Shown here piece after piece: positions 129-18,016 of a stretch of 25,443 nucleotides of DNA; the stretch's first letter is position 1; every line of letters starts with the position of its first letter. Where the stretch lies: positions 1 through 25,443 of the IMG/VR virus record IMGVR_UViG_3300025818_000164; one strand, written 5' to 3'. The translations under genes and the position numbers were made by a program. The notes beneath the pieces are model-generated. The model saw only the letters and a program-made list of their open reading frames with translations, searched no databases and had not been told where the DNA came from. Source of the stretch: a virus.

Positions 129-151
129 TAGCAGCCCTGCATAGCACGACG

Positions 152-179
152 AAAGGCCGCCCTACGGGGCGGTCTTTCT
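152..179 (+). terminator. Rho-independent terminator after the scaffold-like gene
   Basis: An 11-bp stem (152-162 with 167-177, one G-U pair) closes on a TACG loop. The A-rich 5' foot and T-rich 3' foot (TCTTTCT) give a classical intrinsic terminator. It lies 24 bases after the stop codon and just ahead of the promoter-like site at 186-194, so it separates the upstream head genes from the capsid transcript. Confidence 0.8.
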
Positions 180-185
180 GTTTGT

Positions 186-194
186 GCTACGATA
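186..194 (+). promoter_or_regulatory. Candidate extended -10 promoter for the major capsid gene
   Basis: TGCTACGAT matches the extended -10 pattern TGNTANNNT and sits immediately after the terminator. No convincing -35 box is visible. A transcript starting about 7 bases downstream would carry a leader of roughly 115 bases before the capsid ATG at 316. The leader has a small hairpin near 282-294 and a Shine-Dalgarno-like AGAGGAAAG at 300-308. The rest of the gap from 129 to 315 shows no gene. Confidence 0.4.
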
Positions 195-315: not shown

Positions 316-1569
316 ATGGCTCTTGACTTTTCCGCAGCCTCGGCTGCACTCAAGGAAGATTACCAGCCCGCTATTCGTGAACAGCTGAACCAGAACATCA
401 TGCTTCTGGCGCAGGTGGAGACGAACACTGCGGACGTTGAAGGTGAAGAGGCGGTCCTGTCGCTTCACACCGGACGTAACTCGGGCGTTGGCGCTCGCGC
501 CGAGTCCGGCACTCTCCCCACCGCTGGTCAGCAGGCTTACACCAAGGCTCGCATCCCGGTGAAGTTCAACTACGGTCGCATTCAGGTGACCGGCCCGATC
601 ATCGAAGGCATGAAGTCGGACCGCGGTTCGTTCACCCGTGCCATCGACTCGGAGTCGAAGGGGATCGTTGCCGACCTCAAGCGTGACGTCAACCGTCAGT
701 GCTACACCCCGTCGACCGGCATCATCGGTACCGCTGTTACCGTCGTGACCGGCGCTTCGGGCACCATCGTGTTCGGCACCGAGGCTGAGGCCCGTCGTCT
801 TGAGGTCGGCATGCTTGTCGACATCTACGACGGCGACTACGCTTCGGACGACACCGGCGTTGAGGTTACCGGCGTGAACGTCAGCACCAAGACTGTCACC
901 TTCGACAACCTTGATGCTGCGGTCGACGCTGGCGACTGGATCGTGCGTGCGGGTGTTGTTCCGGTTGCCATCAGCTCAAAGGCTACCGAGGACTCCGCCA
1001 ACGAGATCCACGGTCTGGAAGACATCATCAACGATGGCTCCAGCACCGCCGGTCACTCGGGCGGCATTGCCAGCCCGTGGCTCCACGGCATCGATGGCAG
1101 CTCGACCACGATCTGGTCTTCGTATCAGAACGCCGTCGGCGCTGCTCCGACCGACTCGGTCTTTGAGGAAGCGATGGACGAGGTTTACCTCGACAGCGGT
1201 CAAGACGTTGACCTCATCGTCACCTCTCACAAGGCCAGCCGGGCGTTCGCTGCGACGCAGAAGTCGCAGAAGCGTTACATGAACAACCTGGATCTCCAGG
1301 GCGGCTTCAAGGCGCTTAGCGTCCAGACCGGCCGTGGCGAGGTTGCGCTCTACCCCGAGCGTGACTGCCTTGACGACGTGGCGTTCCTGCTCAGCACCGA
1401 GAACGTCATTCAGTGGGTCATGAGCGACTGGTCGTTCATGGACCGTGACGGTTCGGTGCTCAGCCGTGTGGCGAACACCGATGCCTACGAGGCCACGCTG
1501 TACAAGTACCACGAGCTTGGTACCGACAAGCGTAACGCCCACGGCAAGCTGACCGGCCTGACCGTCTGA
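316..1569 (+). CDS. Major capsid protein (HK97-type fold likely)
   Basis: This 417-residue protein probably forms the shell of the head. The N-terminus (MALDFSAASAALKEDYQPAI) is followed by a segment resembling an N-arm and E-loop (about residues 25-100). Next comes a beta-rich stretch with many Val, Thr and Asp residues (about 140-215) that looks like an inserted surface domain. The C-terminal half contains VDLIVTSHKASRAFAATQK and other pieces expected of the P and A domains of this fold. The length fits phage capsid proteins. The start has a good ribosome site (AGAGGAAAG, 7 bases upstream). High-expression placement agrees: own promoter-like site, terminator upstream and hairpin downstream. 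The alternative is another HK97-fold shell protein such as a coat of the P22/SU10 class; that it is the main coat is fairly sure. Confidence 0.85.
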   Translation: MALDFSAASAALKEDYQPAIREQLNQNIMLLAQVETNTADVEGEEAVLSLHTGRNSGVGARAESGTLPTAGQQAYTKARIPVKFNYGRIQVTGPIIEGMKSDRGSFTRAIDSESKGIVADLKRDVNRQCYTPSTGIIGTAVTVVTGASGTIVFGTEAEARRLEVGMLVDIYDGDYASDDTGVEVTGVNVSTKTVTFDNLDAAVDAGDWIVRAGVVPVAISSKATEDSANEIHGLEDIINDGSSTAGHSGGIASPWLHGIDGSSTTIWSSYQNAVGAAPTDSVFEEAMDEVYLDSGQDVDLIVTSHKASRAFAATQKSQKRYMNNLDLQGGFKALSVQTGRGEVALYPERDCLDDVAFLLSTENVIQWVMSDWSFMDRDGSVLSRVANTDAYEATLYKYHELGTDKRNAHGKLTGLTV

Positions 1570-1978: not shown

Positions 1979-2008
1979 AGAAGGCCCGGGCTTCGGCCCG
2001 GGCCTTCT
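1979..2008 (+). terminator. Strong hairpin terminator with UUCG loop
   Basis: A perfect 13-bp stem (1979-1991 with 1996-2008) with a TTCG loop ends in TTCT. The T-tract is short, but the stem is one of the strongest in the window. It separates the coat and decoration pair from the next transcript, whose extended -10 candidate starts 8 bases later. Confidence 0.7.
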
Positions 2009-2015
2009 GCCGTTG

Positions 2016-2024
2016 TGGTAGCAT
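2016..2024 (+). promoter_or_regulatory. Extended -10 box for a leaderless transcript of the 2032 gene
   Basis: TGGTAGCAT fits TGNTANNNT. The hexamer ends 7 bases before the ATG at 2032, so transcription would begin at about that codon. This favours the 2032 start over the in-frame ATG at 2023, which lies inside the promoter box. No Shine-Dalgarno precedes either ATG. Confidence 0.45.
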
Positions 2025-2031
2025 GAACGCC

Positions 2032-2478
2032 ATGCCCCTGAAGCCTGTATTTGACCCCCGCCAGCAGATCGCTGACCGTCTCATCCGGCCGTTGCGTGAA
2101 GGCAAACCGGAGCTGGGATGGCAGGGTGATCCGTCGCTGGTTCTCGTGTTTGAGCGCATCTCGAACCGGTGGGAGTTGTGGCGGCACGAGCCGCTGCAAG
2201 GCGAACCGGATCGTCACATTATGGTCGCTAAGGGCCCGGTGGGGCAGGACTTGAACGAGGATGCGGTCAACTTGTTGATTATGCGGCTGCGGGATGCGGA
2301 CACGCACCGGGGCGGTAACAGTGCCGAGTCGATCGTTGAGAACGCTATTGCGCACAACGACCGGTTGACGAAGAACGCTAACGCTAAGGCAGCGGACGCC
2401 ATTGCTGAGCCTTTGGCTAAGTTCTATCACGAGGCAGGCAAGGCTCTAGGCGTTACGCAGACTACGTTCGGGTTCTAG
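2032..2478 (+). CDS. Hypothetical virion-block protein
   Basis: I do not recognise this 148-residue protein. It starts MPLKPVFDPRQQIADRL. The middle is charged and Trp-containing (RWELWRHEPL), and the C-terminal third is an Ala/Asn/Lys-rich helix (NAKAADAIAEPLAKFYHEAG). It has no membrane segment, signal peptide or Cys motif. It lies between the coat/decoration pair and the head-tail adaptor, in its own transcription unit, so a minor head or head-completion role is plausible but unproven. The start at 2032 was preferred because the extended -10 at 2016-2024 would produce a transcript beginning there. Starting at 2023 adds only three residues (MNA). Confidence 0.7.
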   Translation: MPLKPVFDPRQQIADRLIRPLREGKPELGWQGDPSLVLVFERISNRWELWRHEPLQGEPDRHIMVAKGPVGQDLNEDAVNLLIMRLRDADTHRGGNSAESIVENAIAHNDRLTKNANAKAADAIAEPLAKFYHEAGKALGVTQTTFGF

Positions 2479-2479
2479 G

Positions 2480-2488
2480 TGCTAGACT
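2480..2488 (+). promoter_or_regulatory. Extended -10 box for a leaderless adaptor transcript
   Basis: TGCTAGACT fits TGNTANNNT. The hexamer ends 6 bases before the ATG at 2495, the spacing expected when transcription starts at the first base of the start codon. No Shine-Dalgarno lies upstream of that ATG, which supports leaderless expression. The box begins 2 bases after the upstream TAG stop. Confidence 0.5.
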
Positions 2489-2494
2489 CGTAGC

Positions 2495-3112
2495 ATGGCT
2501 ACGCAGCTCTCCGAAATCCGCACCGAGATCCTTGAAACGGCCGGGCTGGCGTCCGACGACTCCCGCTTCCCGGACGCTACTATGAACCGCATCGTCAACC
2601 GGGCGCTGCGGGCAATCAACGCTGAACGTGATTGGCCGTGGAACCAGCGGCAAACGAACCTAACGACCACCGCTAACGTCCAGTACACCAACTTTCCTAC
2701 CCAGCTGTCTAAGGTGCTGCGGCTGGAAATCGAAGGCCGTAACTTGCAGCAGGTGACCCCGCAGGAAGGCGGCACCTACTCGCAGTTGACCGGCGAGCCG
2801 CACGTTTACTGGGTTGAGCACGACAAGATCCACTGGGGCCCGGTCCCCGACGGTGCGTACACGGTGTACTGCGCCTACCACGGCTACGAAGACGCCCTGT
2901 CTGCCGACGGCGACACCCCGAACCTTCCCGACCGGTACATTGACTGGCTTGTTCAGACCGCTCTGGTCCAAATTTCTCAACGTATCCGAGACACCGACCT
3001 GTACTCGATGGCTGACCGTGAACGTCGTGCCTGGTCCCGTAAAGCCGCCGACGACGCCCGCAGGTCCGCTGCATCATCAAAGGTGAAGTCACGAGACGAT
3101 TGGTGGATCTGA
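2495..3112 (+). CDS. Head-tail adaptor (connector) protein
   Basis: This 205-residue protein probably forms the ring below the portal that joins head and tail. The N-terminal half has the layout typical of this group: a helix (LSEIRTEILETAGL), a short loop with DSRFPDATMNRIVNRALRAI, then INAERDWPWNQRQ. After that come beta strands and a second helical region near residues 145-190 (LPDRYIDWLVQTALVQISQRI). The pattern of an LPDxxxNRxxNxALRxIxxExDW segment is what I associate with HK97 gp6-like or SU10-type adaptors and T7 gp11-like tail tube A proteins. The stop at 3110-3112 is followed directly by the ATG of the next gene at 3114, so the two are co-translated. A tail-tube role is the alternative. 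Confidence 0.7.
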   Translation: MATQLSEIRTEILETAGLASDDSRFPDATMNRIVNRALRAINAERDWPWNQRQTNLTTTANVQYTNFPTQLSKVLRLEIEGRNLQQVTPQEGGTYSQLTGEPHVYWVEHDKIHWGPVPDGAYTVYCAYHGYEDALSADGDTPNLPDRYIDWLVQTALVQISQRIRDTDLYSMADRERRAWSRKAADDARRSAASSKVKSRDDWWI

Positions 3113-3113
3113 C

Positions 3114-4721
3114 ATGAAACGCTCCGTGCGCACGTACTCGGAGTGGCGTCAGGGTTCATCGGCTTCGGCCGATCCAGGCAGCTCCGAATACAACAGCGAG
3201 AACGCTCAGGTTTACGAGAACGGCAGTCTTGGGCCTCGACCGGGTTGGAAAGCTATTTCTGACTCGGCGGGGACCCGTGTCTTTGACCCGGCAACCGACT
3301 CGCTGCTGGGCCTGAGCTGGTATCAAGAAACGGACGCCGCCGAATATCTGGCGGTCGTGTTCGACGATGCCGGTACCGCCAAGTTTGACACGCTGCCGTT
3401 AGCGTCCCCGACGTGGGCTGCCGGTCAAACCCTGACCGACCTGGCAACCGGCGCAGACAACCTGTACCCGCCAAACTACGACGACACCGCCAAGGTTCTG
3501 ACCTCGTTCGACGGGTCGATCCTGTCCGCCCTCGGCCCTCATCTGCTGTTCGCCACGGCCAGCTCGATCGGCACCGTCGCAGCGATCACTACCGCCGACG
3601 GTGACGCCCGATCGGTGACCGTCAACCGAGAACGAGCCTACTACTGGGGCATCAACGCCCGCCCCGGACGTATCTACTACTCCAACGCCGCCGACTTCTC
3701 GACGGTAGAAGCAACGTCGTCGTTTGACACGAACGCCGACGTTGACTCCTATGCCGGTGCTCCGACGGGTGCGTGGTCCGTAAAGAACGCTCTGCTGATC
3801 GCCTGCAAAGACAACCGGTGGCTTGTCCTGACCGGCGCCTCGCCCGATACCGGCTCGCTCAAAGAGCTAGGGCAAGACGTTGCCCCTATCCACGGCACCG
3901 CTACGATCGTAGACAACCAGCTGTGGTTCCTGTCCCCGACGGGCCACGGTCTCGTGGTCGCCACCCCAAGCTTTGTTGAGTCAGAAACGCTGCGGCATAT
4001 GTCGCCGTTGGCGTACCCGGGATCGAGTCTTGCCCGCCCGAACAACTCGTTCATGCCGCAGTCGGCGGTGGGTGACGACATCAACGGCAACCTGATGCTG
4101 CCGGGCCGGTTGACTGGAGATAACGACGAGATCGTTGCGGTCGAGCGAGTCAACGAAGTGTTCAACCTGTCTCGCTGGGACACCGACACTGCCCCGCAAG
4201 ACATCGTGTTCTCGGGCGGGCGACCCAACGAAATGTACGCTGCTGCGGACCTTGGCACGTCGTGGGCGTTCTACAGCCGAGATCACACCCTGAACCGTCC
4301 AGCTAACTCCGGCGACAGCAAGTCGGTGTCGTTGGCAAACGAAGCCAACACTGCTTCCGGCACGGACGTGGTCGTTGATCTCGGTGAGGTGTCTGCCCCG
4401 GGCGGCAAAATCGTTCGACCGATCAAGGTCGTGCTCGACATCGACTACTGGAAGGGCGGCAACTACTCTGCACCGGAGTTGGCTGTAGACGCAACGGTGC
4501 TTGGCACGGAATCCACCACCCCGGAGGATTCGATTGTTCAGCAAACGGTCACGACGACCGGTTGGGCTGACACGTCCGGCGACTCCCCGTACAAACGTCG
4601 AGTTCCCGTGGCGTTGCCAAACACACAGTTCGGCACCAAGTTCCGGATCCGGCTCACGTACGACAACATTGCCCTAGACAGTGTGCAGGTGTACTACGAC
4701 GAGCAGGATGACCCCAGATGA
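3114..4721 (+). CDS. Probable tail nozzle/stopper protein
   Basis: This 535-residue protein is beta-rich with few helices. The N-terminus reads MKRSVRTYSEWRQGSSASAD and continues with a region (NGSLGPRPGWKAI) I associate with the start of podoviral tail-tube B or nozzle proteins that fold as beta-propellers. Repeated short strands rich in Trp, Tyr, Asp and Gly run from about residue 40 to 350. A separate beta domain occupies the last 140 residues, from the VVVDLGEVSAPGGKIV segment onward. It begins one base after the adaptor stop and ends in a 4-base ATGA overlap with the fibre gene, so adaptor, nozzle and fibre are made together. The function is inferred from order and fold type; a receptor-binding or hub protein is possible. 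Confidence 0.55.
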   Translation: MKRSVRTYSEWRQGSSASADPGSSEYNSENAQVYENGSLGPRPGWKAISDSAGTRVFDPATDSLLGLSWYQETDAAEYLAVVFDDAGTAKFDTLPLASPTWAAGQTLTDLATGADNLYPPNYDDTAKVLTSFDGSILSALGPHLLFATASSIGTVAAITTADGDARSVTVNRERAYYWGINARPGRIYYSNAADFSTVEATSSFDTNADVDSYAGAPTGAWSVKNALLIACKDNRWLVLTGASPDTGSLKELGQDVAPIHGTATIVDNQLWFLSPTGHGLVVATPSFVESETLRHMSPLAYPGSSLARPNNSFMPQSAVGDDINGNLMLPGRLTGDNDEIVAVERVNEVFNLSRWDTDTAPQDIVFSGGRPNEMYAAADLGTSWAFYSRDHTLNRPANSGDSKSVSLANEANTASGTDVVVDLGEVSAPGGKIVRPIKVVLDIDYWKGGNYSAPELAVDATVLGTESTTPEDSIVQQTVTTTGWADTSGDSPYKRRVPVALPNTQFGTKFRIRLTYDNIALDSVQVYYDEQDDPR

Positions 4722-6613
4722 GCGGGCGCACATTCACGTATCAGGGCAACTACGACGACTTCGTCCGCTACCTGCTTCCTGACGTTGAAATGTCAGATCG
4801 GCGTAAGTCGGTCGGCATTGGCGACAGCATGCTTCGTGAGGTCGAAGAGTTCTTGAACCGGTTCGTGGTGACCGCCGTCAACGACGCTGGTGACATCATC
4901 TTTGACGCCGCAGGTTCGTACACGTTCCAGGGCGACGTGATTATCGGTGGCGAGCTTCAGTCCAGCAACTGGGTTGATGACACGGTCGGGTGGCAGTTGC
5001 GGTCCGACGGCACGTTCGAGTTCAACAGTTCCGGCGATGTCCGGGGCGATTTGGGCGTGCACGGCGACATGACGATGTTTACCGGCGGCGCTATGAAGAC
5101 GAACGCTTCTGGTTTGCGTGCGGAGATTTCGGAAGCTACGACCTCGACGTCGATCGTTGGTGGTTCTGCGGACTTTGCCGGTGTTGACTTGTTTACGGGT
5201 GACGCTGGGGAGCTAGAGCCCGGCTTGTTGGGCGTGTCGAACAGTGCTGCCGGGTACTCTACGGTGGTGCTTGCTGGTGCTGATCTGGCTGGCGCTGCTC
5301 AGCGGTCTTACGTGTACTTTAGTTCTACTACTGCTGGTAATACTGAGACTCGGTTGAGCGATCCGTCCCGGACGTATTTGACGGCCGGTAGTTCTTCGGT
5401 TGACATCAACCAGACCGGCATAAACGTCAATGTTGCTGACGGAGATTTGGACCTCGCTGTAAAGAACCTTCCTTCCGGCAGTTATCAGGACAAGATCAAC
5501 TTGGCGGAGGATCTGTTCAAGGTCACGTTGAGCAATGCTGAGCGGATGCGGTTGGACACTACTGGGCTTGGTATCGGCACGAACGCTCCCGCTGTTCCTT
5601 TGCATGTTGCTAGTTCCGACCCGGAAATGCTTCGGCTGCAACTAAACGACACGTCGGTTGCTGGCGGCTACATCGGGTTCCATCACAACAGCGGACGCAT
5701 CGGGTACATCGGGTTTCCCGACAACGATGATCTTCACATCAAGAATGAAGACTCGGATGGCCTGATCTACTTCAGCACGAACAACACGACTCGGATGGCG
5801 ATCGAAGCTGGCGGTCAGGTCGGTATCGGCACGTCCACACCGAGCTCCCAGCTGCACGTCAACGCAGGCACCGTGAACAACGTAGCTTCGTTTGAGTCGA
5901 CCGATGCCGGTGCGATCATCAGCGTCATGGACAACTCAACGACGGGCAGCGCCTACGTCGGCATCCGTGCCGACGGCAACGATCTTAGTCTTCGTGCGGG
6001 TAACTCTAACCGAGTAAGGATTGTCTCTAGCGGTCAAACAAGATTCACCGATGGCAGCATCTCAGATCTTGGAACTTCGTTCGCCAGCGACACCGACACG
6101 GGCACGTATCTACACTCCACAAATATGTTCGGCGTGGCTGCTGGAGGAAACCCAACGATCGTCGGCACCTCGACTGGCGTGGCAATCAACAACTCGACAG
6201 CCTCAACTTCGGGCACCCGATGCAACCTCGTTAGCGCTTCGGTCGGCGGCGTCTCCATGCTCGCCCTTCGGAAGCACACGTCGCTGCGCCAGCACAAGTC
6301 AGACATCGTGGATTTCAATCTGACCGACGAGCAGTTCATGGCGATCCAGCCTCGGTCGTTTATCTGGAACGGCCAATACATCGGACCGAACGGCGAGTTC
6401 GGAACGACGACCGGCGACGACGTCGACAACATCATTCCAGAAGGATCGCACCTCATGCGCCGTAGCGGGTTCATCGTGGAAGAACTTGCCGAGGTTGACC
6501 TGCATCTCGTCGGAGACGACGCCGTCGACTTTGATGGGGTCACTGCGGCCCTCGTAGCGCAAGTACAAAAGCTACAGCGCCGCATTGACAGTCTTGAGTC
6601 AGCTCATACGTGA
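4718..6613 (+). CDS. Tail fibre with C-terminal intramolecular chaperone (peptidase S74)
   Basis: This 631-residue fibre probably binds the host surface. The N-terminal part (1-60) should attach to the tail. A WQLRSDGTFEFNSSGDVRG segment follows, a style common at the shaft start of phage fibres. The shaft is beta-rich with two GIGT-x-x-P-x-x-x-LHV units at residues 285 and 369. From about residue 515 the sequence looks like an S74 chaperone: S522 and K527 have the Ser-x4-Lys spacing of the self-cleavage dyad (TSLRQHKSD), and the end is a coiled coil (AALVAQVQKLQRRIDSLE). In that family the chaperone drives trimer folding and is then cut off just before the Ser. The gene starts inside the nozzle stop (ATGA). 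Confidence 0.8.
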   Translation: MSGRTFTYQGNYDDFVRYLLPDVEMSDRRKSVGIGDSMLREVEEFLNRFVVTAVNDAGDIIFDAAGSYTFQGDVIIGGELQSSNWVDDTVGWQLRSDGTFEFNSSGDVRGDLGVHGDMTMFTGGAMKTNASGLRAEISEATTSTSIVGGSADFAGVDLFTGDAGELEPGLLGVSNSAAGYSTVVLAGADLAGAAQRSYVYFSSTTAGNTETRLSDPSRTYLTAGSSSVDINQTGINVNVADGDLDLAVKNLPSGSYQDKINLAEDLFKVTLSNAERMRLDTTGLGIGTNAPAVPLHVASSDPEMLRLQLNDTSVAGGYIGFHHNSGRIGYIGFPDNDDLHIKNEDSDGLIYFSTNNTTRMAIEAGGQVGIGTSTPSSQLHVNAGTVNNVASFESTDAGAIISVMDNSTTGSAYVGIRADGNDLSLRAGNSNRVRIVSSGQTRFTDGSISDLGTSFASDTDTGTYLHSTNMFGVAAGGNPTIVGTSTGVAINNSTASTSGTRCNLVSASVGGVSMLALRKHTSLRQHKSDIVDFNLTDEQFMAIQPRSFIWNGQYIGPNGEFGTTTGDDVDNIIPEGSHLMRRSGFIVEELAEVDLHLVGDDAVDFDGVTAALVAQVQKLQRRIDSLESAHT

Positions 6614-6619
6614 TAAGCT
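6611..6619 (+). promoter_or_regulatory. Extended -10 box overlapping the fibre stop codon
   Basis: TGATAAGCT fits TGNTANNNT, and its first three bases are the fibre stop codon. The hexamer ends 6 bases before the ATG at 6626, so the transcript would be leaderless. A TTGACA occurs at 6585-6590 but is 23 bases from the -10, too far for a standard -35. Confidence 0.5.
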
Positions 6620-6625
6620 GTGCGC

Positions 6626-6778
6626 ATGAATGAATCAGCCCCCTTGACCTTTACCGACGAACAACTAGTCGCCGCTCTTCGAGTGGGCCCAGAGTCACTT
6701 ATGGCTCAGGTTTCGATTATCGCAATGCAAATGGAGCTGGCGCAGCGTCGAGCTGCCGACAACAACGAGGAAGACTGA
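6626..6778 (+). CDS. 50-residue protein of unknown function
   Basis: This short frame encodes 50 residues beginning MNESAPLTFTDEQLVAALRV and ending in a charged helix (MELAQRRAADNNEED). Two helices are likely (about 11-20 and 25-44), with a Met-rich middle and no Cys or membrane segment. It sits in the 168-base gap between the fibre and the SLH protein, preceded by an extended -10 at leaderless spacing. Its end contains the Shine-Dalgarno (GAGGAAGA) of the following gene. Exact fit of promoter, frame and next ribosome site argues it is real. The function is unknown; a small assembly chaperone is one guess. Confidence 0.65.
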   Translation: MNESAPLTFTDEQLVAALRVGPESLMAQVSIIAMQMELAQRRAADNNEED

Positions 6779-6781
6779 CCA

Positions 6782-7657
6782 ATGGCCCAGATGGCGACCC
6801 GAGGTGACCTCGCCTCAGCACTGTTCAACGCACTCGGCATCGAACCCACATCCAGTGGGCGCTTTGGCGATGCCGGAGAGCTAGACGCCGCCACCTCGAC
6901 CCTCGCTGATCTGGGCATCACGAACGGCATCGGCGGAGGCCAGTACGGCACCGCCCAACCCACGACCCGGGGGCAGGCGTTCACCATGATCGCCCGTGCC
7001 CTCGGGCTCGCTGACGCCAACACCACTATCCAGCAGGCGTCGCAGGCGCTCGTCAACGCTGGCATCGTGCAAGGCTACGGCGGCGACCCGAACAACCTCG
7101 GTATCAACGACCCGCTTCAGCTTGACCACCTCGGGCTGCTTGTCAACCGGCTGGAGCCCGAGTTGGAGCGGCCGTCCGGCGATATTGGCGGCGGCACGGT
7201 GGCCGACCGTATCGTTGACCAAGCCGACCAGGCCCGTGACGAGAACGTGGCCCGGCAGGACCCTGCGTACGCTGCGTACCTTCGGGGCGTGGGCATGCGG
7301 TCCGCTGAGATCGCTGACGAGATCGCTTTGCGTCAGGACCTGTTTGCTGAGGACGCACGTCGACGTTCGGATGCGTACGCTCGGGCGCAAGAGCAGGCCA
7401 TGCAAGGCATCCAGACCGGGTTCGAGCAGCGTGGCTTGTTCCGTTCCGGCACTCGAATGCGGTCCGAAGCGGAGAAGCGTCAGCAGTTGGGGTACGAGCA
7501 GGAAGCGGCGCAGGCTGGGGCTCAGCGAGAGTACGAGTCTGCTATTCGTGCGCTAGAGCAGCAGCAGACTGCGCTTGACCGTGAAGCCGAGCAGGAGCGT
7601 ATCGCTGCGGCAGCTCGGGGTATTGAGACGGAGATCGAAGAACCGTACAATGGCTGA
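6782..7657 (+). CDS. SLH-domain protein, probable internal/ejection virion protein
   Basis: This protein has 291 residues. Residues 1-125 look like two to three S-layer homology repeats: a helix RGDLASALFNALGI, the FGDA turn, LADLGITNGIGGG, then TTRGQAFTMIARALGL and a third partial unit ending LQLDHLGLLVNRL. SLH domains bind pyruvylated cell-wall polymers in bacteria. Residues 140-291 are a long charged helix or coiled coil (Arg, Glu, Ala and Gln rich) without membrane segments. It follows the fibre and precedes two more helical genes, which suggests a T7 gp14-like ejection protein or a wall-contact tail part. The ribosome site GAGGAAGA is 7 bases upstream of ATG. The SLH call is fairly good; the role is inferred. 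Confidence 0.65.
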   Translation: MAQMATRGDLASALFNALGIEPTSSGRFGDAGELDAATSTLADLGITNGIGGGQYGTAQPTTRGQAFTMIARALGLADANTTIQQASQALVNAGIVQGYGGDPNNLGINDPLQLDHLGLLVNRLEPELERPSGDIGGGTVADRIVDQADQARDENVARQDPAYAAYLRGVGMRSAEIADEIALRQDLFAEDARRRSDAYARAQEQAMQGIQTGFEQRGLFRSGTRMRSEAEKRQQLGYEQEAAQAGAQREYESAIRALEQQQTALDREAEQERIAAAARGIETEIEEPYNG

Positions 7658-8804
7658 ACCTCGTAAACTTGACCCGGAGTTGTCAGAACCGGAGCGTCGT
7701 GATTTGGTGCGGCGGATCACTGAACGTGGATCTCGCGGGTATCAGGCAGAAGAAACGACGGTGCAGCCGAGCGTAGATTACGCTGCGGCAGCTGAGGCTG
7801 CGGTTAGGGCCGATCCGGTGGTGTTGCCGCCGTCCGCTCAGGAAGAGCTGGCAGGAATCACGGGTCAGGTAGCGGATGAGGCTCAGCGGTTTGCTGCGGC
7901 GCAGCGTGAGATCTTTGAGCGGGGTCGGCAGCGCGAGTTGGAGGCCGGTCAGCGGTATTTCGATCAGGGCGCTTTGGTGCGTGAAGCGACCGACTTTGCG
8001 TTGGCCCGGTATTCGGAACAGTTGGCGGAGGATGAACGGCGACGTCAGGAAGCTGCCCGACGGGCCGCCAGCGCCTTCCAGAGCTTCTCTCCCGCCCCCA
8101 CAGGCGATTCTGGTACTAGGACACCTGGAGCGCTTGAGCTGGCGTCTCCGGAGCTTCAGGGGCCTCGTCGGATTGTTCGTCAGCCCGACCCGGATCTGGT
8201 CGACGACGCTTACGAGAACTTCTTTGCTCGCCTGCCTGAGGACCAGATCGACGACGCTAACCTGTTGACGCAGGCGTACGACGGGATCTTTGACGAGGGC
8301 ATGACCGCCGCTCAGGCGTACTTTGCTCTTGGTAAGAGCGAGGCAGAAACTCGCAAGCTGCTTGCCGAAGGCATGGACGCTGCTGGCATGGCAACCTACG
8401 ACGCTAACCGGATGGCAGGATACATCGTCACGGCGTACGCCCCGTTGTGGGAAGGCGACTTCTCAGACAACCCGCTTGACCCGTTCCGGTTTGATCCCGC
8501 AGGGATTGAAGAACGGACCCGGGTTCCCGACGGCTACATCGCACCAAACACGCCCCGCCCGAGCACGTACCTGACGAGTGTGTTGAGGTCAGAACCGGCT
8601 GGCGGCCGGGACTACACCGCACCGGTGACCGGCCAGGCGGCGAGCACTCAACGACCTGCGACGTACTCTACGACCCCACGCCGGAACCCAGCCACACGGC
8701 CCACGACACGGGCACGGCCCGACATGGCGGGAGCACCGTATGCAAGTGCCGCCTTTGAGGACACGGCATACGGGGAACTCCTAGCGAAATACGGCATCGG
8801 CTAA
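7650..8804 (+). CDS. Coiled-coil virion protein, possible ejection-complex member
   Basis: This 384-residue protein starts MAEPRKLDPELSEPERRDLV. I chose the ATG at 7650, which overlaps the upstream stop by 8 bases; an earlier in-frame start at 7575 lies well inside the neighbour and has no advantage. Residues 50-160 are a long Ala/Glu/Arg/Gln-rich coiled coil, followed by a Pro-rich linker. A mixed helical domain (about 190-290) contains FARLPEDQIDDANLLTQAYD, and the tail is Pro/Thr/Arg-rich and likely disordered. No known domain was recognised. Context between the SLH protein and the giant protein, all in one run, suggests a T7 gp15-like internal protein. This is by position and composition only. 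Confidence 0.6.
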   Translation: MAEPRKLDPELSEPERRDLVRRITERGSRGYQAEETTVQPSVDYAAAAEAAVRADPVVLPPSAQEELAGITGQVADEAQRFAAAQREIFERGRQRELEAGQRYFDQGALVREATDFALARYSEQLAEDERRRQEAARRAASAFQSFSPAPTGDSGTRTPGALELASPELQGPRRIVRQPDPDLVDDAYENFFARLPEDQIDDANLLTQAYDGIFDEGMTAAQAYFALGKSEAETRKLLAEGMDAAGMATYDANRMAGYIVTAYAPLWEGDFSDNPLDPFRFDPAGIEERTRVPDGYIAPNTPRPSTYLTSVLRSEPAGGRDYTAPVTGQAASTQRPATYSTTPRRNPATRPTTRARPDMAGAPYASAAFEDTAYGELLAKYGIG

Positions 8805-8807
8805 ACT
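8802..8807 (+). promoter_or_regulatory. -10 box for a leaderless giant-protein transcript
   Basis: TAAACT begins with the upstream gene's TAA stop codon and ends 6 bases before the ATG at 8814. There is no TG extension here and no clear -35. No Shine-Dalgarno precedes the ATG, so leaderless translation is the simplest reading. Confidence 0.4.
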
Positions 8808-8813
8808 AGCTCT

Positions 8814-11800
8814 ATGAGTATCCTTGAACAGTTCGAGGAAGACGGTCAGCCGACGGGCACGATCCCGTCAGCCCCTACCCCCGGCCCCGTAGTAACGACA
8901 GCCCCGGCAGCTCCGAGGTCTGCCCGGGACCGGATCGTTCAGGGCGCACAGAACGCCGTCGCCAAAGCAAACCAAGACGCCGCCGACGCCCAGTTCGCTA
9001 TTGACACGGACGTTGAAGAAGGTGTCGACCCGGCACAAGTCAACCAGCTGCTGTCCGGTCTGGGGCGACTCAACTACGTCGCAACGCAAGACGAAGGCGA
9101 CGAAGACCTACAGAACTTTGTTGCCTACAAGCTCAAAGCACTCGTTGACCAGGGGCTTGCCCCGGAGGAATCTCTTCGCCAGTACGGGCTGGCCGAGGTT
9201 GATCTTCCTGACGACCCTAACTTCTTTCAGAAAGCCGTCGGGGCAGCCATCGAAACTCCAGTGCTGGGCGACGTCCTTGAATACATCACGGACGTGTCCG
9301 AGGGCTTCACGACGGCGTGGGCTTTGGCGATGGCCGACGACCAGAACCGGCATTGGGAAATGTTGGACGCTATCGGCACGGGCCTTGCTGGTAACGACCA
9401 GAAGCAGGAATACCTGGATCTCGTAGATAAAGACGGCGACGGTGTCGTCAACTTCCGAGAGATGCTCGGACTTGACCCGAACGCCGGTGAACGAGACGAC
9501 GCTGACAGTTTCCTTGAGAAGGCATTCAACTACGGTATCGGTGCCGCAGACACGCTCGGGCTCGTCGGCACCGACCCCACCTCTTACGTCACGTTCGGTG
9601 TCGGCACCGTTAGCAAAGCCCGCCTCGGCATGCGTGCTCTCGAAGAGGTAGGCGGGGAAGCTATGGTGGCTGCCGTCCGGCGTGGCGGCATTCAGGTGCT
9701 CGACGAGGTGCAGCAGCAGGCCGTTCAGCGCAGGCTAGTTGAGATCATTTCGGAGAGTGCCGACACGGTGCGCCGCCGCCCTAACGAGGTTGCTCGGGGT
9801 ATCGCTGCTGGGTCTCAAGAAATGATCGAGCACCGTGCCGTGCAGCAGATGGTCCAGATGATGCGTTACCAGAACGCTATCGCCCGAGGCGGCCGTGCCG
9901 TCCGATACGGGATGCCGGGCCGTCGCCAGTTCGGAGATCTCGTACCTGACCTTCCCCGAGTGCGGTCGTTGTACGACGTCGAACCTCGGTTCACTGGAGC
10001 TAGGGTCCGTCGTGGAGTGACGGATCTTCCTGCCGTGCAGCGGGTCGCTCGTGGCCTTGACTTTATCAAGCCCCGTGCCGCTCTGAAGCGTGCGTTCGGC
10101 GGCCGCATCGAGCGAATCATTGACGACGTGCGTGTGCAGGCAGGCAGCCTGCCCGATCATTTGCTTGACGACATGAACCGGCGGGCCGTTGGTGCCCAGC
10201 AGCGGGCCGTGCGTGAGATGAACGACAGTCTCGCTGCGAAGGTTCCCGGCATGCGCCGGGTGGGTGCGGCCGACACGTTGGAAGACTTGAACGCTTTCGT
10301 GCGTGAAGCGTTGGAGGGCGGACGTGCGCCCGGCGGTGTGGGCCCGCAGCTTGACGCTGCCCAGCAGGTCGCCAAGGTCGTTGATGACCTAAACCGCCGA
10401 GGCTTGCCTCGTGCCGCCGAGTACGTCGAGACGATGGCTGCGATTCGTCAAACGGTCGAGGACGCAGCCCGGCGTGCTGGTCTTCCTGAAGAGTACCTGA
10501 ACCTGCGCTACATGCCTCGCACCCTGACGCGTGAGGGAGAACAGCTTGTTCGTCAGAACCGAGCGCTAGCCGAAGAGATAGGTATTTCTCCTGATGCCGT
10601 GGCGCAGCGAGAGTTCTCTTTCCAACGTCCTCGTGATCCTCGTCTTGCAGAGATGACGATTGAGGAAGCCAACGAGACACTCAAGAAGCAGTTTGGACTT
10701 CCCGACGGCGTCAAGCTGTTCGAGGACGACCCGCTTACTGCGTTCGCTGTTCGTGGCAAGTCGGCGTTCCAGGCCGCTACCACGGTGGACCTGCTCAACG
10801 GGTTGACTAAAGAAACGCTCGACGGGTTCCCGCTGGCGGTGTGGGACGACTCCCTTGAAACGGCAGCGGAGCAGGCGTCTCGAAAGGCACAAGCTGAAGC
10901 TCGCAAGCAGGCTGAGAAGGCTGCTCGTGCAGCGCTCCCGAAGGGCAAGTCGAAGAAGGCGTTGCAGGCTCGTGAGGCGTTTGAGAAGTCTCTGAAAGAT
11001 CAGAAGAAAGCAGCGAAGAAAGCGGAGGAGCAGCTAGCGCGTTCCCGTGGCCGGATGACTAAACAAGCTCTTGAGCGTAAATACACGAGGGTAGACACCC
11101 CGAACGGCGCCATTTACGTGCCCGAGGAAGTCGCTACAGAGCTGCGCCAAGTCCGTGACTTGATCGTCAACGATGCTGACCTTCGTGGCCTGAACGACTT
11201 CTTCCAGAGCTGGACCCGTACCTGGGGCGGCTGGGCCACCTCACCACTCATCGACGGCATCGGCTTCCACTCCCGTAACGCTACCGGCAACATGATGCTG
11301 AACGCCATCAAGGGCATCGTGAACCCGGCCACCTACGCCCGGGCCGGTGGTATTCAACGCAAGATGTACCGTGCCCGGACAGCGATGAAGAGAGAGAACC
11401 TGTCCTTCGAGGATGCGATGGACCGGGTAAAGATGAGCAACAGGCAGAAAGCGTTTGCTCGACAGGCCCGCCAGTACGACATCATGGGCGCTGGCTTCTT
11501 TGACGACCTCGCTCTTGACAGCAGGCAGTCAAGGCTGTGGGATGTGTTGGGCGAGAACAAGTTCATCTCGACGGGTCGTGCGATGGGTTCGGCCATCGAG
11601 CACAACGCCCGCATGGCCCACTACATCCACATGATCGACGAGGGCCTCGCCCCGGCGGACGCTGCCCGCTCCGTCCGACAATCCCTGTTTGACTACTCGG
11701 ACTTGACAGCGGTCGAGCGCCGCATCCGGTACCTGTCCCGGTTCTACACGTTCATGCGTAAGAACACCGGGTACCAGCTGTGGGCTCTTACCCGATACCC

Positions 11801-13226
11801 GGGTCGTGTGGCTCAGCTCGAATCACGAGTGGAGAGCGGTCTAGACCTCGAAGGCGTTCTTGGGTTGGAGATGGCCGGGTATGCCGGTGAGCGTGGGGAC
11901 ACGTTCTTGGACCCGTTCGGATTGAAGGGCGCTACCGCTCAGATTGACACGCCGTTTAGCGCCGCCACGGAGACGGTGCGTCCGTTGCTGCTGCTCGGGG
12001 CCGAGCTTACGGGTGCAGAAGATGTGCCCGATGAAGAACTCTTCCGTTCGTTCATGGACCTCACCTCCGGTGGTCCTCGTGCCCTGGCTGACTTGGCCTA
12101 CGAGAAGATCACCGGCGTTGACCCGTTCACTGGCGCTCCTGCCAAGGGAGGCGCCGAGCAGACCTGGATGGCGCTTGCGGACGCTGTAATCGGCCCGGCG
12201 TGGTCGTCCATTGACCGTGCCGTGCAGCGAGCTACCCGTGGCGAAGGTCTCGGACCGATCGGTAACGAACCGTCTCGGACCGCAACTATTGGTGAGCCCG
12301 GCGGCGGGCTGGATCTGTTCGGCCTGGTAGAGGTCCCCGAGGTCGTCATCTTGTCGAACATCCTCGGCCTCAACGTCGCCCCCTACGGCGACGAGAACGT
12401 CATCTCAAATATGTATGCGATGATCGAGCAGACCGACAATCTGCTGAAAGACATCGAGGGTGCACCCACCATCGAGCAGCTACGCCGCAACGGCATCCTG
12501 CCGCCAGCTCCCAGGTCCCCGTCTCGTGCCGAGTCTGTCAGCCTTCAGGAACAGATTGCAGAAGACCAGGCCGCCGGGCTGGACACGACCCTGCTGGAGG
12601 AACGCTACCAGCAGGCGCTGCTCGACGAGCAGGAGCGGGGCACGATCATTGACGAGGAGACCGGCGAGTACACGACCCGCCTCGGCCGTCTTTCTGACTA
12701 CTCGCTGTCAGCCGCTTTGTACGTGCTCGACGACGACGGCAACCCGAGCCTCGACGAAGACGGCAACCCGAAGCCATCGCAGGGCAAGCTCGCCAAGGTG
12801 CTGTACTCGATCGACAACCCGGGCGATGCGTTCCTCGACGACGACGGCACACCGTTCGACGAATACGACATCCCGGTTCGCTGGTACAACGCTTCACAAA
12901 CAGAAGTGCTGGAGTGGGCCAAGCAGGTCGGCGCTCCGCTGTCCGAGCGGGGCAACGTCATTCTGGCGACGCAGAACGCCTGGAACCAGACGTTCCCGGA
13001 CAACCCGTACTACGGCGAGACGAATGTGATCGACCGTGTCCTCGGCGGGCTCGTCCCGATCCAGGGCATCTACACGTTCGTTGACGATCAGGGTCAGACG
13101 CAGGAAGTGCGGGGCCCGGTATCTGCCGCCGAGATCCTCGGCACGACGCCGCAGGTCCCGTCAGGACCGTCCGCACTGTCCGACGGTGACTCGCCCAGCT
13201 CCATCATGGGGATCCTCGGCGGGTAA
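8814..13226 (+). CDS. Giant internal virion protein, probable DNA-ejection protein
   Basis: This 1470-residue protein is the largest in the window. After a Pro/Ala-rich start it carries a canonical EF-hand loop at residues 205-216 (D205, D207, D209, N213 and E216 at the calcium-ligand positions). Residues 240-650 are mainly helical. A Lys/Ala/Glu coiled coil follows (about 685-755), then a region with VPEEVATEL and FHSRNATGNMMLNAIKG (near 820-840), features I associate with large phage virion proteins. A Trp/Tyr-rich helical stretch YTFMRKNTGYQLW follows. Near the end, three DDDG or DEDG-N/T-P turns lie at 1306-1347. Length and position resemble T7 gp16 (about 1300 residues), but no lytic transglycosylase motif was seen. 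A tape-measure-like role is the alternative. Confidence 0.65.
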   Translation: MSILEQFEEDGQPTGTIPSAPTPGPVVTTAPAAPRSARDRIVQGAQNAVAKANQDAADAQFAIDTDVEEGVDPAQVNQLLSGLGRLNYVATQDEGDEDLQNFVAYKLKALVDQGLAPEESLRQYGLAEVDLPDDPNFFQKAVGAAIETPVLGDVLEYITDVSEGFTTAWALAMADDQNRHWEMLDAIGTGLAGNDQKQEYLDLVDKDGDGVVNFREMLGLDPNAGERDDADSFLEKAFNYGIGAADTLGLVGTDPTSYVTFGVGTVSKARLGMRALEEVGGEAMVAAVRRGGIQVLDEVQQQAVQRRLVEIISESADTVRRRPNEVARGIAAGSQEMIEHRAVQQMVQMMRYQNAIARGGRAVRYGMPGRRQFGDLVPDLPRVRSLYDVEPRFTGARVRRGVTDLPAVQRVARGLDFIKPRAALKRAFGGRIERIIDDVRVQAGSLPDHLLDDMNRRAVGAQQRAVREMNDSLAAKVPGMRRVGAADTLEDLNAFVREALEGGRAPGGVGPQLDAAQQVAKVVDDLNRRGLPRAAEYVETMAAIRQTVEDAARRAGLPEEYLNLRYMPRTLTREGEQLVRQNRALAEEIGISPDAVAQREFSFQRPRDPRLAEMTIEEANETLKKQFGLPDGVKLFEDDPLTAFAVRGKSAFQAATTVDLLNGLTKETLDGFPLAVWDDSLETAAEQASRKAQAEARKQAEKAARAALPKGKSKKALQAREAFEKSLKDQKKAAKKAEEQLARSRGRMTKQALERKYTRVDTPNGAIYVPEEVATELRQVRDLIVNDADLRGLNDFFQSWTRTWGGWATSPLIDGIGFHSRNATGNMMLNAIKGIVNPATYARAGGIQRKMYRARTAMKRENLSFEDAMDRVKMSNRQKAFARQARQYDIMGAGFFDDLALDSRQSRLWDVLGENKFISTGRAMGSAIEHNARMAHYIHMIDEGLAPADAARSVRQSLFDYSDLTAVERRIRYLSRFYTFMRKNTGYQLWALTRYPGRVAQLESRVESGLDLEGVLGLEMAGYAGERGDTFLDPFGLKGATAQIDTPFSAATETVRPLLLLGAELTGAEDVPDEELFRSFMDLTSGGPRALADLAYEKITGVDPFTGAPAKGGAEQTWMALADAVIGPAWSSIDRAVQRATRGEGLGPIGNEPSRTATIGEPGGGLDLFGLVEVPEVVILSNILGLNVAPYGDENVISNMYAMIEQTDNLLKDIEGAPTIEQLRRNGILPPAPRSPSRAESVSLQEQIAEDQAAGLDTTLLEERYQQALLDEQERGTIIDEETGEYTTRLGRLSDYSLSAALYVLDDDGNPSLDEDGNPKPSQGKLAKVLYSIDNPGDAFLDDDGTPFDEYDIPVRWYNASQTEVLEWAKQVGAPLSERGNVILATQNAWNQTFPDNPYYGETNVIDRVLGGLVPIQGIYTFVDDQGQTQEVRGPVSAAEILGTTPQVPSGPSALSDGDSPSSIMGILGG

Positions 13227-13285: not shown

Positions 13286-13423
13286 CTACTGGCAGCTATC
13301 GCAGACGTCTGGGTTCTCGACCCCGCACACAATGAGCTCGTCGTCATCGACGTCCATCACGAAGTCAAACTCGCCACGGTACTCCGCCAGCGCCTCGGTC
13401 TCGTTGGTTTCCGTCGGAGCCAT
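13286..13423 (-). CDS. 45-residue acidic cysteine-motif protein
   Basis: This very short frame encodes MAPTETNETEALAEYRGEFD followed by an acidic stretch (DVDDDEL) and three cysteines, C33-x7-C41-x2-C44, at the C-terminus. The ATG overlaps the holin TGA by one base (TGATG), a standard coupling arrangement, and the frame ends just before the hairpins closing the block. The three Cys could be part of a metal site, perhaps shared between two copies, but no family is recognised. Placement at the end of the lysis set suggests a lysis regulator such as an antiholin, which is only a guess. It has no membrane segment. Confidence 0.6.
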   Translation of the reverse strand: MAPTETNETEALAEYRGEFDFVMDVDDDELIVCGVENPDVCDSCQ

Positions 13424-13671
13424 CAGTCAAACGCCCCCGCCGTGTTGGGAGGGCCGACCCGCTTCGAGGCGAGGGAGGTAAGGAGGCTGAGCACAGCGCC
13501 ACCGAGGCCGTACAGCCACGGTTCGGGATCGAGGAAGAAAGTCAAACTGACTTCTGCTTCCAGCACGTTCTCGGCACCGACACGTAGGATCACGGCTTGT
13601 GCGAAGGTCTTGACTGCCCGCTCTGCGGCGTCTACGCCCCAGGTGGACCAGCGTTTCAGGTAGAGGTTCAT
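13423..13671 (-). CDS. Holin (phage r1t-type)
   Basis: This 82-residue membrane protein probably permeabilises the host membrane to let out the endolysin. The first third (WSTWGVDAAERAVKTFAQAV) has the W-x-x-DAAERAxKTFAQ signature I recall from r1t-like holins of actinophages. It is followed by AENVLEAEV and a second hydrophobic segment (GLGGAVLSLLTSLASKRVG). Two membrane spans fit a holin of this class, as does the length. The start has both a GAGGGG ribosome site and a TGATAGGCT extended -10 that overlaps the upstream stop. Gene order supports the call: the endolysin, a one-span membrane protein and this gene are on the same strand. Confidence 0.85.
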   Translation of the reverse strand: MNLYLKRWSTWGVDAAERAVKTFAQAVILRVGAENVLEAEVSLTFFLDPEPWLYGLGGAVLSLLTSLASKRVGPPNTAGAFD

Positions 13672-13678
13672 ACCCCTC

Positions 13679-13687
13679 AGCCTATCA
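13679..13687 (-). promoter_or_regulatory. Candidate extended -10 box ahead of the holin
   Basis: On the - strand, TGATAGGCT fits TGNTANNNT; its first three bases are the metallophosphoesterase stop codon. The hexamer ends 7 bases before the holin ATG. Unlike the other cases the 7-base spacer (GAGGGGT) is itself a ribosome site, so this match may be chance. Confidence 0.3.
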
Positions 13688-14522: not shown

Positions 14523-14741
14523 TCAGAAGACGATGTCTTCGAGTTTGGTAATCCGTCGATCGTGGTCTTCTAGGGTGGTGTCTTGCCGGGCGGAACGCTC
14601 GGCCACGTCTTCTCGTAGGACGTACAGATCATCGTGAAGCGTGTCGTGCTTGTTCGACAGTCCCCGCATCCACGCCATCGCTCCGACCAGGAACGGAGTT
14701 AGGGTGCCGATGATAGCGAACAGCAACTCGGTGTTGGTCAT
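14523..14741 (-). CDS. Small membrane protein with coiled coil, possible second holin or holin partner
   Basis: This 72-residue protein has one hydrophobic segment at about residues 5-26 (LLFAIIGTLTPFLVGAMAW), followed by a charged coiled-coil tail rich in Asp, Glu, His and Arg (HDTLHDDLYVLREDVAERSA). The topology recalls small phage lysis proteins of the XhlA or LydA-accessory type. The ATG overlaps the endolysin stop (ATGA), so it is coupled to the endolysin. The role could be antiholin, second holin or spanin-like anchor, but the Gram-positive setting makes a spanin unlikely. The lysis assignment is from position and topology. Confidence 0.7.
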   Translation of the reverse strand: MTNTELLFAIIGTLTPFLVGAMAWMRGLSNKHDTLHDDLYVLREDVAERSARQDTTLEDHDRRITKLEDIVF

Positions 14742-15430
14742 GTCTTCAGTCGCTCTCTAAGCTCCTGAAGCACCTGCTCCACGATGTTGGGAAGTTCTCG
14801 ACGGACAGCGTCACGCACCTGCTGCGGTGTGACCTGCCCGGGGTCGCCCTTGTCGCCCTTGTCGCCCTTCGGGCCCCGAGGCCCTCGGGTAGCGGCTGCT
14901 GGTGCTGGCGCCGGTGCCGGTGCTGGGGCACTCAACTCCAGCTTGATAGCTTCCAGCTCTACCCGGCCCGAGTCTCCCGGGCAGGCAGTAGCGGACCGGT
15001 CCGAGTGTCCACGCACCTTCGACGGGTCGCCGCCGGTAGCCCACCGAGCGACCCGCATCAGCGACTCGTGCTGCGCTGGGGTGATGGCCGGGCTGTTGCC
15101 GGGGATGTGCACGGTGAGCGCCTTGGACGCCTTCGAGGTCGACGCACGGCGGAGATCTCGACCTTCCCAGATCTCGCCGTCAGCGAACACGAACGTCTGG
15201 TAGAAGATGTCTGACCAGCGCTTCGTCTTCTCGTGGTAGCGTTCGATGCCGAGCAGCCACTTCTGCTTGTCCTCGAAGGACAGGCTGCGAGGCCCAGCCC
15301 CTCCGGTGTGGTGAAGCTCGAACTCGGTGATGTCGGACACGCCACGAGTGAGCCTAGCTTTAGGCTCGCTCTTGTCCCATCCCCGACGCTTCACGTCGAG
15401 CAGGCCGTAGTATTCCTCAAGTCGTCCCAT
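14738..15430 (-). CDS. Endolysin: N-acetylmuramoyl-L-alanine amidase with collagen-like linker
   Basis: This 230-residue enzyme should cut the bond between muramic acid and the peptide stem. Residues 30-160 form an amidase_2/PGRP-type domain: FELHH (H40/H41), RWSDIFYQTFVFADGEIWEG in the middle, and GHSDRSATACPGD with H142 and C150. The H-x7-C spacing matches the zinc ligands of T7 lysozyme. T148 occupies the site of T7 K128. A Pro-Ala linker (168-179) precedes five Gly-X-Y triplets (183-197, GPRGPKGDKGDKGDP), then a C-terminal helix (VTPQQVRDAVRRELPNIVEQ onward). There is no signal peptide, so export should need the holin. No separate cell-wall-binding domain is recognisable; the tail may play that part or make multimers. 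Confidence 0.9.
   Translation of the reverse strand: MGRLEEYYGLLDVKRRGWDKSEPKARLTRGVSDITEFELHHTGGAGPRSLSFEDKQKWLLGIERYHEKTKRWSDIFYQTFVFADGEIWEGRDLRRASTSKASKALTVHIPGNSPAITPAQHESLMRVARWATGGDPSKVRGHSDRSATACPGDSGRVELEAIKLELSAPAPAPAPAPAAATRGPRGPKGDKGDKGDPGQVTPQQVRDAVRRELPNIVEQVLQELRERLKT
14843..14869. repeat. Three perfect 9-bp tandem repeats inside the endolysin linker
   Basis: GTCGCCCTT occurs three times in a row (14843-14851, 14852-14860, 14861-14869). On the - strand it encodes Lys-Gly-Asp units of the collagen-like segment. Such a slippage-prone tract can change linker length in multiples of three residues without breaking the frame. Confidence 0.8.
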
Positions 15431-17938: not shown

Positions 17939-18016
17939 TGGTGGACGTGCCGGGGATCGAACCCGGGTAACCCGCACCTGCACGTAGCCGGTGCAGCGAA
18001 GCCAACCTTCACGCCC
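17939..18016 (-). tRNA. Atypical tRNA or tRNA-like element, anticodon uncertain
   Basis: The - strand shows a 7-bp acceptor stem (GGGCGTG, 18016-18010, with CACGTCC at 17949-17943, one G-U pair), a perfect 5-bp T arm around TTCGATC, discriminator A and an encoded CCA (17941-17939). Length without CCA is 75. The remainder folds poorly. A stem CTGCAC/GTGCAG closes the loop CGGCTAC (anticodon would be GCT, Ser, but position 33 is G, not T). An alternative stem with a G-A mismatch closes CTACGTG (anticodon ACG, Arg). The D arm is only AAG/CTT, directly abutting the acceptor. It may be a divergent functional tRNA, a decaying copy or a tRNA mimic. It sits 20 bases before the primase start. Confidence 0.55.

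Follow-up and report, generated by a model that had tools for sequence, protein, structure and literature searches.

Many late genes of this virus and of related uncultured viruses, probably of actinobacteria, encode virion and lysis proteins and carry a TANNNT box 6 or 7 nt before their start codons, and this arrangement is real and kept across distant relatives. The reading that we favour, and consider very probable, is that the boxes are -10 promoters of the primary sigma factor, which would generate leaderless mRNAs and break the late block up into some ten units. According to this model, the box is a -10 element (TANNNT, mostly TGN-extended and without a recognisable -35) that would be read by the host primary sigma. 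With the start codon lying 6–7 nt downstream, transcription would begin at the first base of the ATG or GTG, and the ribosome would then take the 5′ start codon of the leaderless mRNA without Shine-Dalgarno (SD) pairing. A leaderless promoter about every one to three genes would split the late block into units beginning at the small terminase, portal, g3, adaptor, g7 and g10 genes. The endolysin and holin, which end the leftward replication arm, would each have a start to themselves, while the capsid, scaffold and post-terminase genes, whose box lies farther upstream, would retain a leader. We infer the identity of the sigma factor, the 5′ ends, the activity and timing of the promoters and their effect on protein amounts from sequence. 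The 5′ ends of boxed genes would be expected on the A of the ATG, and at spacing 7 a one-base leader could arise. Unequal protein output among the late units is plausible; in mycobacterial work, protein yield from leaderless reporters can fall below that from a reporter with a strong leader (PMC7148126). The boxless replication arm may be just one long polycistron, in which case its internal genes could not be leaderless.

The window, that is, the whole stretch analysed, is a 25.4-kb IMG/VR virus record (25,443 nucleotides; 62.5% GC), whose gene calls and starts are computational. Its rightward genes form the right part of the late block, from capsid to g10 on the plus strand (starts: capsid 316, g2 1631, g3 2032, adaptor g4 2495, g5 3114, tail fibre g6 4718, g7 6626, g8 6782, g9 7650 and g10 8814). 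One of them, g8 (6782–7657), matches the S-layer homology domain PF00395, which is odd for a phage particle protein. The minus strand encodes a holin, metallophosphoesterase, endolysin, primase, Sak4-like protein, exonuclease, helicase and DNA polymerase. A 78-nt element immediately 5′ of the primase gene (17939–18016, minus strand) matches the tRNA-like domain of tmRNA (RF00023, 32.1 bits against a gathering score of 47; E 1.3e-11 on 231 bp). It encodes the CCA, its acceptor pair is G3.U70-like and the mRNA/tag part is missing; an identical copy occurs in relative L017 and a pattern search found none in more distant relatives. A gathering-threshold Rfam scan of the window was empty.

Relatives were obtained from scans of viral contigs, and nearly all of those used have 42–100% terminase or portal identity; an alignment of seven capsid sequences was too diverse to serve as a search query. 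The left part of the late block is missing from the window and is supplied by the overlapping relatives L011 and L043, which carry the small terminase, large terminase, portal and scaffold genes. L043 also includes a divergent region, flanked by small genes that run leftward and by the late block, which runs rightward. Within this early/late region (L043 5225–5770) there are long G-rich and C-rich runs, as well as a leftward promoter-like site, TGTTACAAT, which lies some 100 nt ahead of the first gene read in that direction. The WhiB gene found in L017 (3921–4235), together with kinship to Arthrobacter, Microbacterium and Cellulosimicrobium phages, points to an actinobacterial host; when bacterial genomes were scanned with portal and terminase, neither a close prophage nor a host emerged. 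The boxed genes of the window are as follows.

2016..2024, plus strand: g3 box TGGTAGCAT (TGG-TAGCAT-N7-ATG2032)
2032..2478, plus strand: g3, 148 aa, predicted leaderless
2480..2488, plus strand: g4 box TGCTAGACT (TGC-TAGACT-N6-ATG2495)
2495..3112, plus strand: g4, SU10-type adaptor (PF24175), predicted leaderless
6611..6619, plus strand: g7 box TGATAAGCT (TGA-TAAGCT-N6-ATG6626)
6626..6778, plus strand: g7, 50 aa, predicted leaderless
8802..8807, plus strand: g10 box TAAACT (GGC-TAAACT-N6-ATG8814)
8814..13226, plus strand: g10, large late-block protein, 1470 aa, predicted leaderless
13679..13687, minus strand: holin box TGATAGGCT (TGA-TAGGCT-N7-ATG13671)
13423..13671, minus strand: holin (phrog_443), predicted leaderless
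15437..15442, minus strand: endolysin box TAGAAT (TAGAAT-N6-ATG15430)
14738..15430, minus strand: endolysin (phrog_1493), predicted leaderless

The four plus-strand boxes had been listed in a first-pass annotation and proved exact, as did the absence of an SD at the four genes and the TG extension at three of them (2032, 2495 and 6626). Fusion of the box to the preceding stop codon also holds at 6611, where the TGA stop of g6 supplies the TGN, and at 8802, where the TAA stop of g9 forms the first half of the box. The holin box, whose TGN likewise comes from the TGA of an upstream stop, and the endolysin box were absent from that list. The claim that the boxes are used in virion genes was too narrow, since lysis genes are boxed too. 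For g3, ATG2023 is an in-frame alternative, and ATG2032 is favoured because homologues begin at the box-spaced ATG (ATGCCC in L046, L057 and L058).

Is the box more frequent at gene starts than chance would allow, as had been proposed? Counts over the whole window (5 forward and 5 reverse, with 1 and 4 for the reversed pattern as control) were too weak to decide, and the tests were therefore made at gene starts. Six of the 25 genes in the window have TANNNT 6–7 nt before an ATG or GTG, compared with 0.38 expected from background spacings 10–30 (P 1.7e-6), and the box thus passes the proposed test; the 4 other pattern matches are antisense or internal. Among 150 genes from 11 loci, 20 boxes occur at spacing 6 and 10 at spacing 7, and every other spacing from 0 to 30 has 0–5. 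After dereplication, 27/91 late genes of the close group are boxed versus 2.8 expected, and 16/42 versus 0.4 expected in the distant relatives L050 and L064. In L064, 10/21 plus-strand genes are boxed, and the motif occurs at no spacing from 0–20 of its called genes except 6–7. None of the 48 early or replication genes has a box, against 43/133 late genes (Fisher 2e-7, a value that overstates independence because the lineages share ancestry).

Boxed starts have other features in common. An SD 5-mer is found at 0/43 boxed genes versus 39/90 unboxed late genes (P 8e-9, ignoring shared ancestry). The start codon is ATG in 35, GTG in 7 and TTG in 1, and a pyrimidine occupies position -1 in 38 of 43 (C 26, T 12). 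These properties fit the mycobacterial leaderless rules. The TGN extension is present in 23/27 boxes of the close group, compared with 2/16 in L050 and L064, where most boxes are not extended -10 elements. In these two distant relatives GTG starts are commoner (6/16) and the leaderless geometry is retained with TGN mostly missing, as if host or sigma preference differed. A position table of the boxed sites contained no -35 signal, and a sigma-70 -35/-10 scan gave nothing above shuffles, which is expected because there is no -35.

The arrangement is conserved gene by gene. A TANNNT at spacing 6 or 7 precedes the portal gene in 9/9 lineages, in the forms TAAGAT, TACAAT, TACGAT, TAGGAT, TATCAT, TAGGAT, TAGACT, TAACCT (with a GTG start) and TAGTCT, and precedes the adaptor gene in 6/6, including L050 at 36% protein identity. 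Both boxes therefore persist despite changed letters. The boxes of g3, g7, g10 and the first late gene are retained in most lineages where these are covered (g3 in L046, L057, L058, L050 and L064; g7 in L011 and L012; g10 in L011, L012 and L050). In L012, an inserted gene of 210 aa separates g3 from the box, so that the inserted gene is now boxed and g3 lies behind it; because the newcomer took over the box, the box is a property of the transcription unit and not of the gene. The endolysin of relatives L018 and L019 has a strong SD and no box, which indicates that the mode is switchable and not fixed at every gene. Retention of box and spacing at orthologues in about ten lineages argues for the leaderless mRNAs that had been suggested from the window.

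TGN-TANNNT boxes also precede the post-terminase, scaffold and capsid genes in several lineages, 19–122 nt before the start at the loci measured. At the capsid gene the distance is about 90–125 nt and the leader is retained. The capsid unit of the window comprises these features.

151..178, plus strand: terminator-like hairpin before the capsid promoter (fold z -8.4)
185..193, plus strand: predicted capsid promoter TGCTACGAT, a leadered extended -10
316..1569, plus strand: major capsid gene (phrog_14242), leadered, with a GA-rich SD-like stretch upstream
1979..2008, plus strand: terminator-like hairpin between the capsid unit and g3 (z -5.0)

The capsid promoter box is present before the capsid gene in L012, L013, L046, L057 and L058. 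A hairpin similar to the first occurs in the same place in L012 and L013, with folds not significant versus shuffles, and one between the capsid unit and the g3 box is also found in L012 and L046. Leadered boxes are mostly followed by an A 6–8 nt downstream, often within AGCCCC or ACCCCC. This is the position that the A of the ATG occupies at leaderless sites, which gives indirect support to the predicted transcription start. The predicted capsid leader (194–315 in the window) measures about 110–160 nt in relatives, which have common motifs such as GGCTGGACC and no clear conserved fold. Taken with the leaderless boxes, the leadered boxes and the two terminators support the earlier suggestion that the late block would be divided into many units.

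Could the boxes be something other than leaderless promoters? About half of them overlap an upstream stop codon (19/41, by range used), as would be expected of a by-product of the stop codons (TAA, TAG, TGA) that precede starts, or of base composition. However, the final T is needed (TANNNT 29, versus TANNNA 3, TANNNC 3 and TANNNG 5 at the same place) and the enrichment is limited to spacings 6 and 7, so that a stop-codon artefact is controlled for; moreover, early genes have none, and g3 sites set off by a terminator have no stop codon nearby. These final-T and spacing controls rule out the by-product, to which we give practically no chance. The fixed distance to the start codon might instead denote a translational signal within a longer mRNA, with no promoter involved. 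This is just as hard to believe, given that the box is also found 19–122 nt upstream of leadered genes, stays with its unit after the gene insertion in L012 and lies downstream of terminators.

Two further explanations accept the boxes as promoters. In one, transcription would start a few bases earlier or within the gene, producing short leaders or a start codon chosen otherwise. The occurrence of both spacings, 6 and 7, and the ability of initiation to wobble by 1–2 nt agree with this, but wobble would not force a sharp 6–7 peak, these genes lack an SD and their start codons are in phase with the predicted +1, and we consider such a shift improbable. Less probable still, to the point of being remote, is that the boxes are read by a phage-encoded sigma factor or polymerase instead of the host sigma. 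Restriction to late genes does suggest a phage-timed reader; yet eight related records contain no sigma region 2 or 4 domain and no PF00940/T7-type polymerase match (for the latter the control was silent and the records may be fragments), and the motif is a common actinobacterial -10.

How might a promoter read by the host primary sigma be restricted to late genes? WhiB7 binds region 4 of SigA (PMC3905903) and AsiA spares TGn/-10 promoters (PMC2613000). It is conceivable, although we think it unlikely, that the leaderless extended -10 boxes are a phage-timed late class and that the phage WhiB binds sigma region 4 and blocks -35-dependent promoters; as part of the same doubtful proposal, late promoters that consist of TGN/-10 only would escape the block. 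Three close-group contigs have WhiB and both contigs without TGN lack it, while L021 has TGN boxes and no WhiB. The idea draws on few, related genomes and is a lead only. If true, the phage WhiB would be the actinobacterial counterpart of AsiA in T4, and the cell would be moved to SD-independent late messages.

Leaderless genes are common in Actinobacteria (PMC3160421), in mycobacteria a 5′ ATG or GTG is necessary and sufficient (PMC4633059), and TANNNT is found 7–12 bp before transcription start sites with no -35 consensus (PMC3898074). The boxed genes resemble the TA-led leaderless genes of Actinobacteria, which have TANNNT about 12–13 nt before an ATG or GTG start and no SD (PMC3160421, PMC3898074). 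They differ in that here the boxes are on phage late genes and, in the close group, 85% are TGN-extended versus 7% of M. tuberculosis TANNNT promoters (PMC3898074). Among phages, a +1 at the start codon's first base is likewise predicted for SigA promoters in Cluster O mycobacteriophages (Corndog) and for the promoter of Adephagia gene 90 (PMC4351075, PMC11373665). Those promoters are few and are divergent or serve a single gene, PL2 among them, for a leftward gene inside the structural operon, whereas the boxes described here are serial, lie in the rightward late block and are conserved orthologue by orthologue. The late region of T7, where phi promoters follow in series and the capsid gene is succeeded by the Tphi terminator, is alike in having several promoters in the structural block and, by annotation, a promoter and a terminator that belong to the capsid unit. 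T7, however, uses its own polymerase and makes leadered transcripts, while here the -10 boxes are host-like and most units are predicted leaderless. The literature searched contained no serial, late-only, orthologue-by-orthologue leaderless system. Leaderless genes in actinobacteria and isolated leaderless promoters in phages thus have precedents, and what appears new, judging from the literature and genomes compared, is a conserved late-only system that operates gene by gene.

The same gene-start test was applied to other phages. A small sample (Jasmine 0/48, DS1 2/51, phiC31 1/47, PA6 1/24) led us to reject the pattern as a general feature of actinophages, and T7, as an outside control, gave 1/43. 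Microbacterium phage Shocker (L038) gave a weak 4/58 (P 0.19), with TANNNT exactly 6 nt before ATG at 3582, 16907, 18521 and 23449 and none at spacing 7, a hint of the system in cultured Microbacterium phages.

The structural genes of tailed phages are usually pictured as a single long late operon tuned by ribosome-binding sites. The late block described here resembles instead a succession of short units headed by promoters of the host type. Within it, the low-copy portal and adaptor are predicted to be set as leaderless and the capsid as leadered and set off by terminator-like hairpins, and this per-gene leader state is conserved in distant relatives. Start sites and unit boundaries can thus be predicted for each gene from sequence alone. 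The system also bears on the annotation of start codons and operons in such phages, since gene callers that rely on the SD can put these starts in the wrong place.
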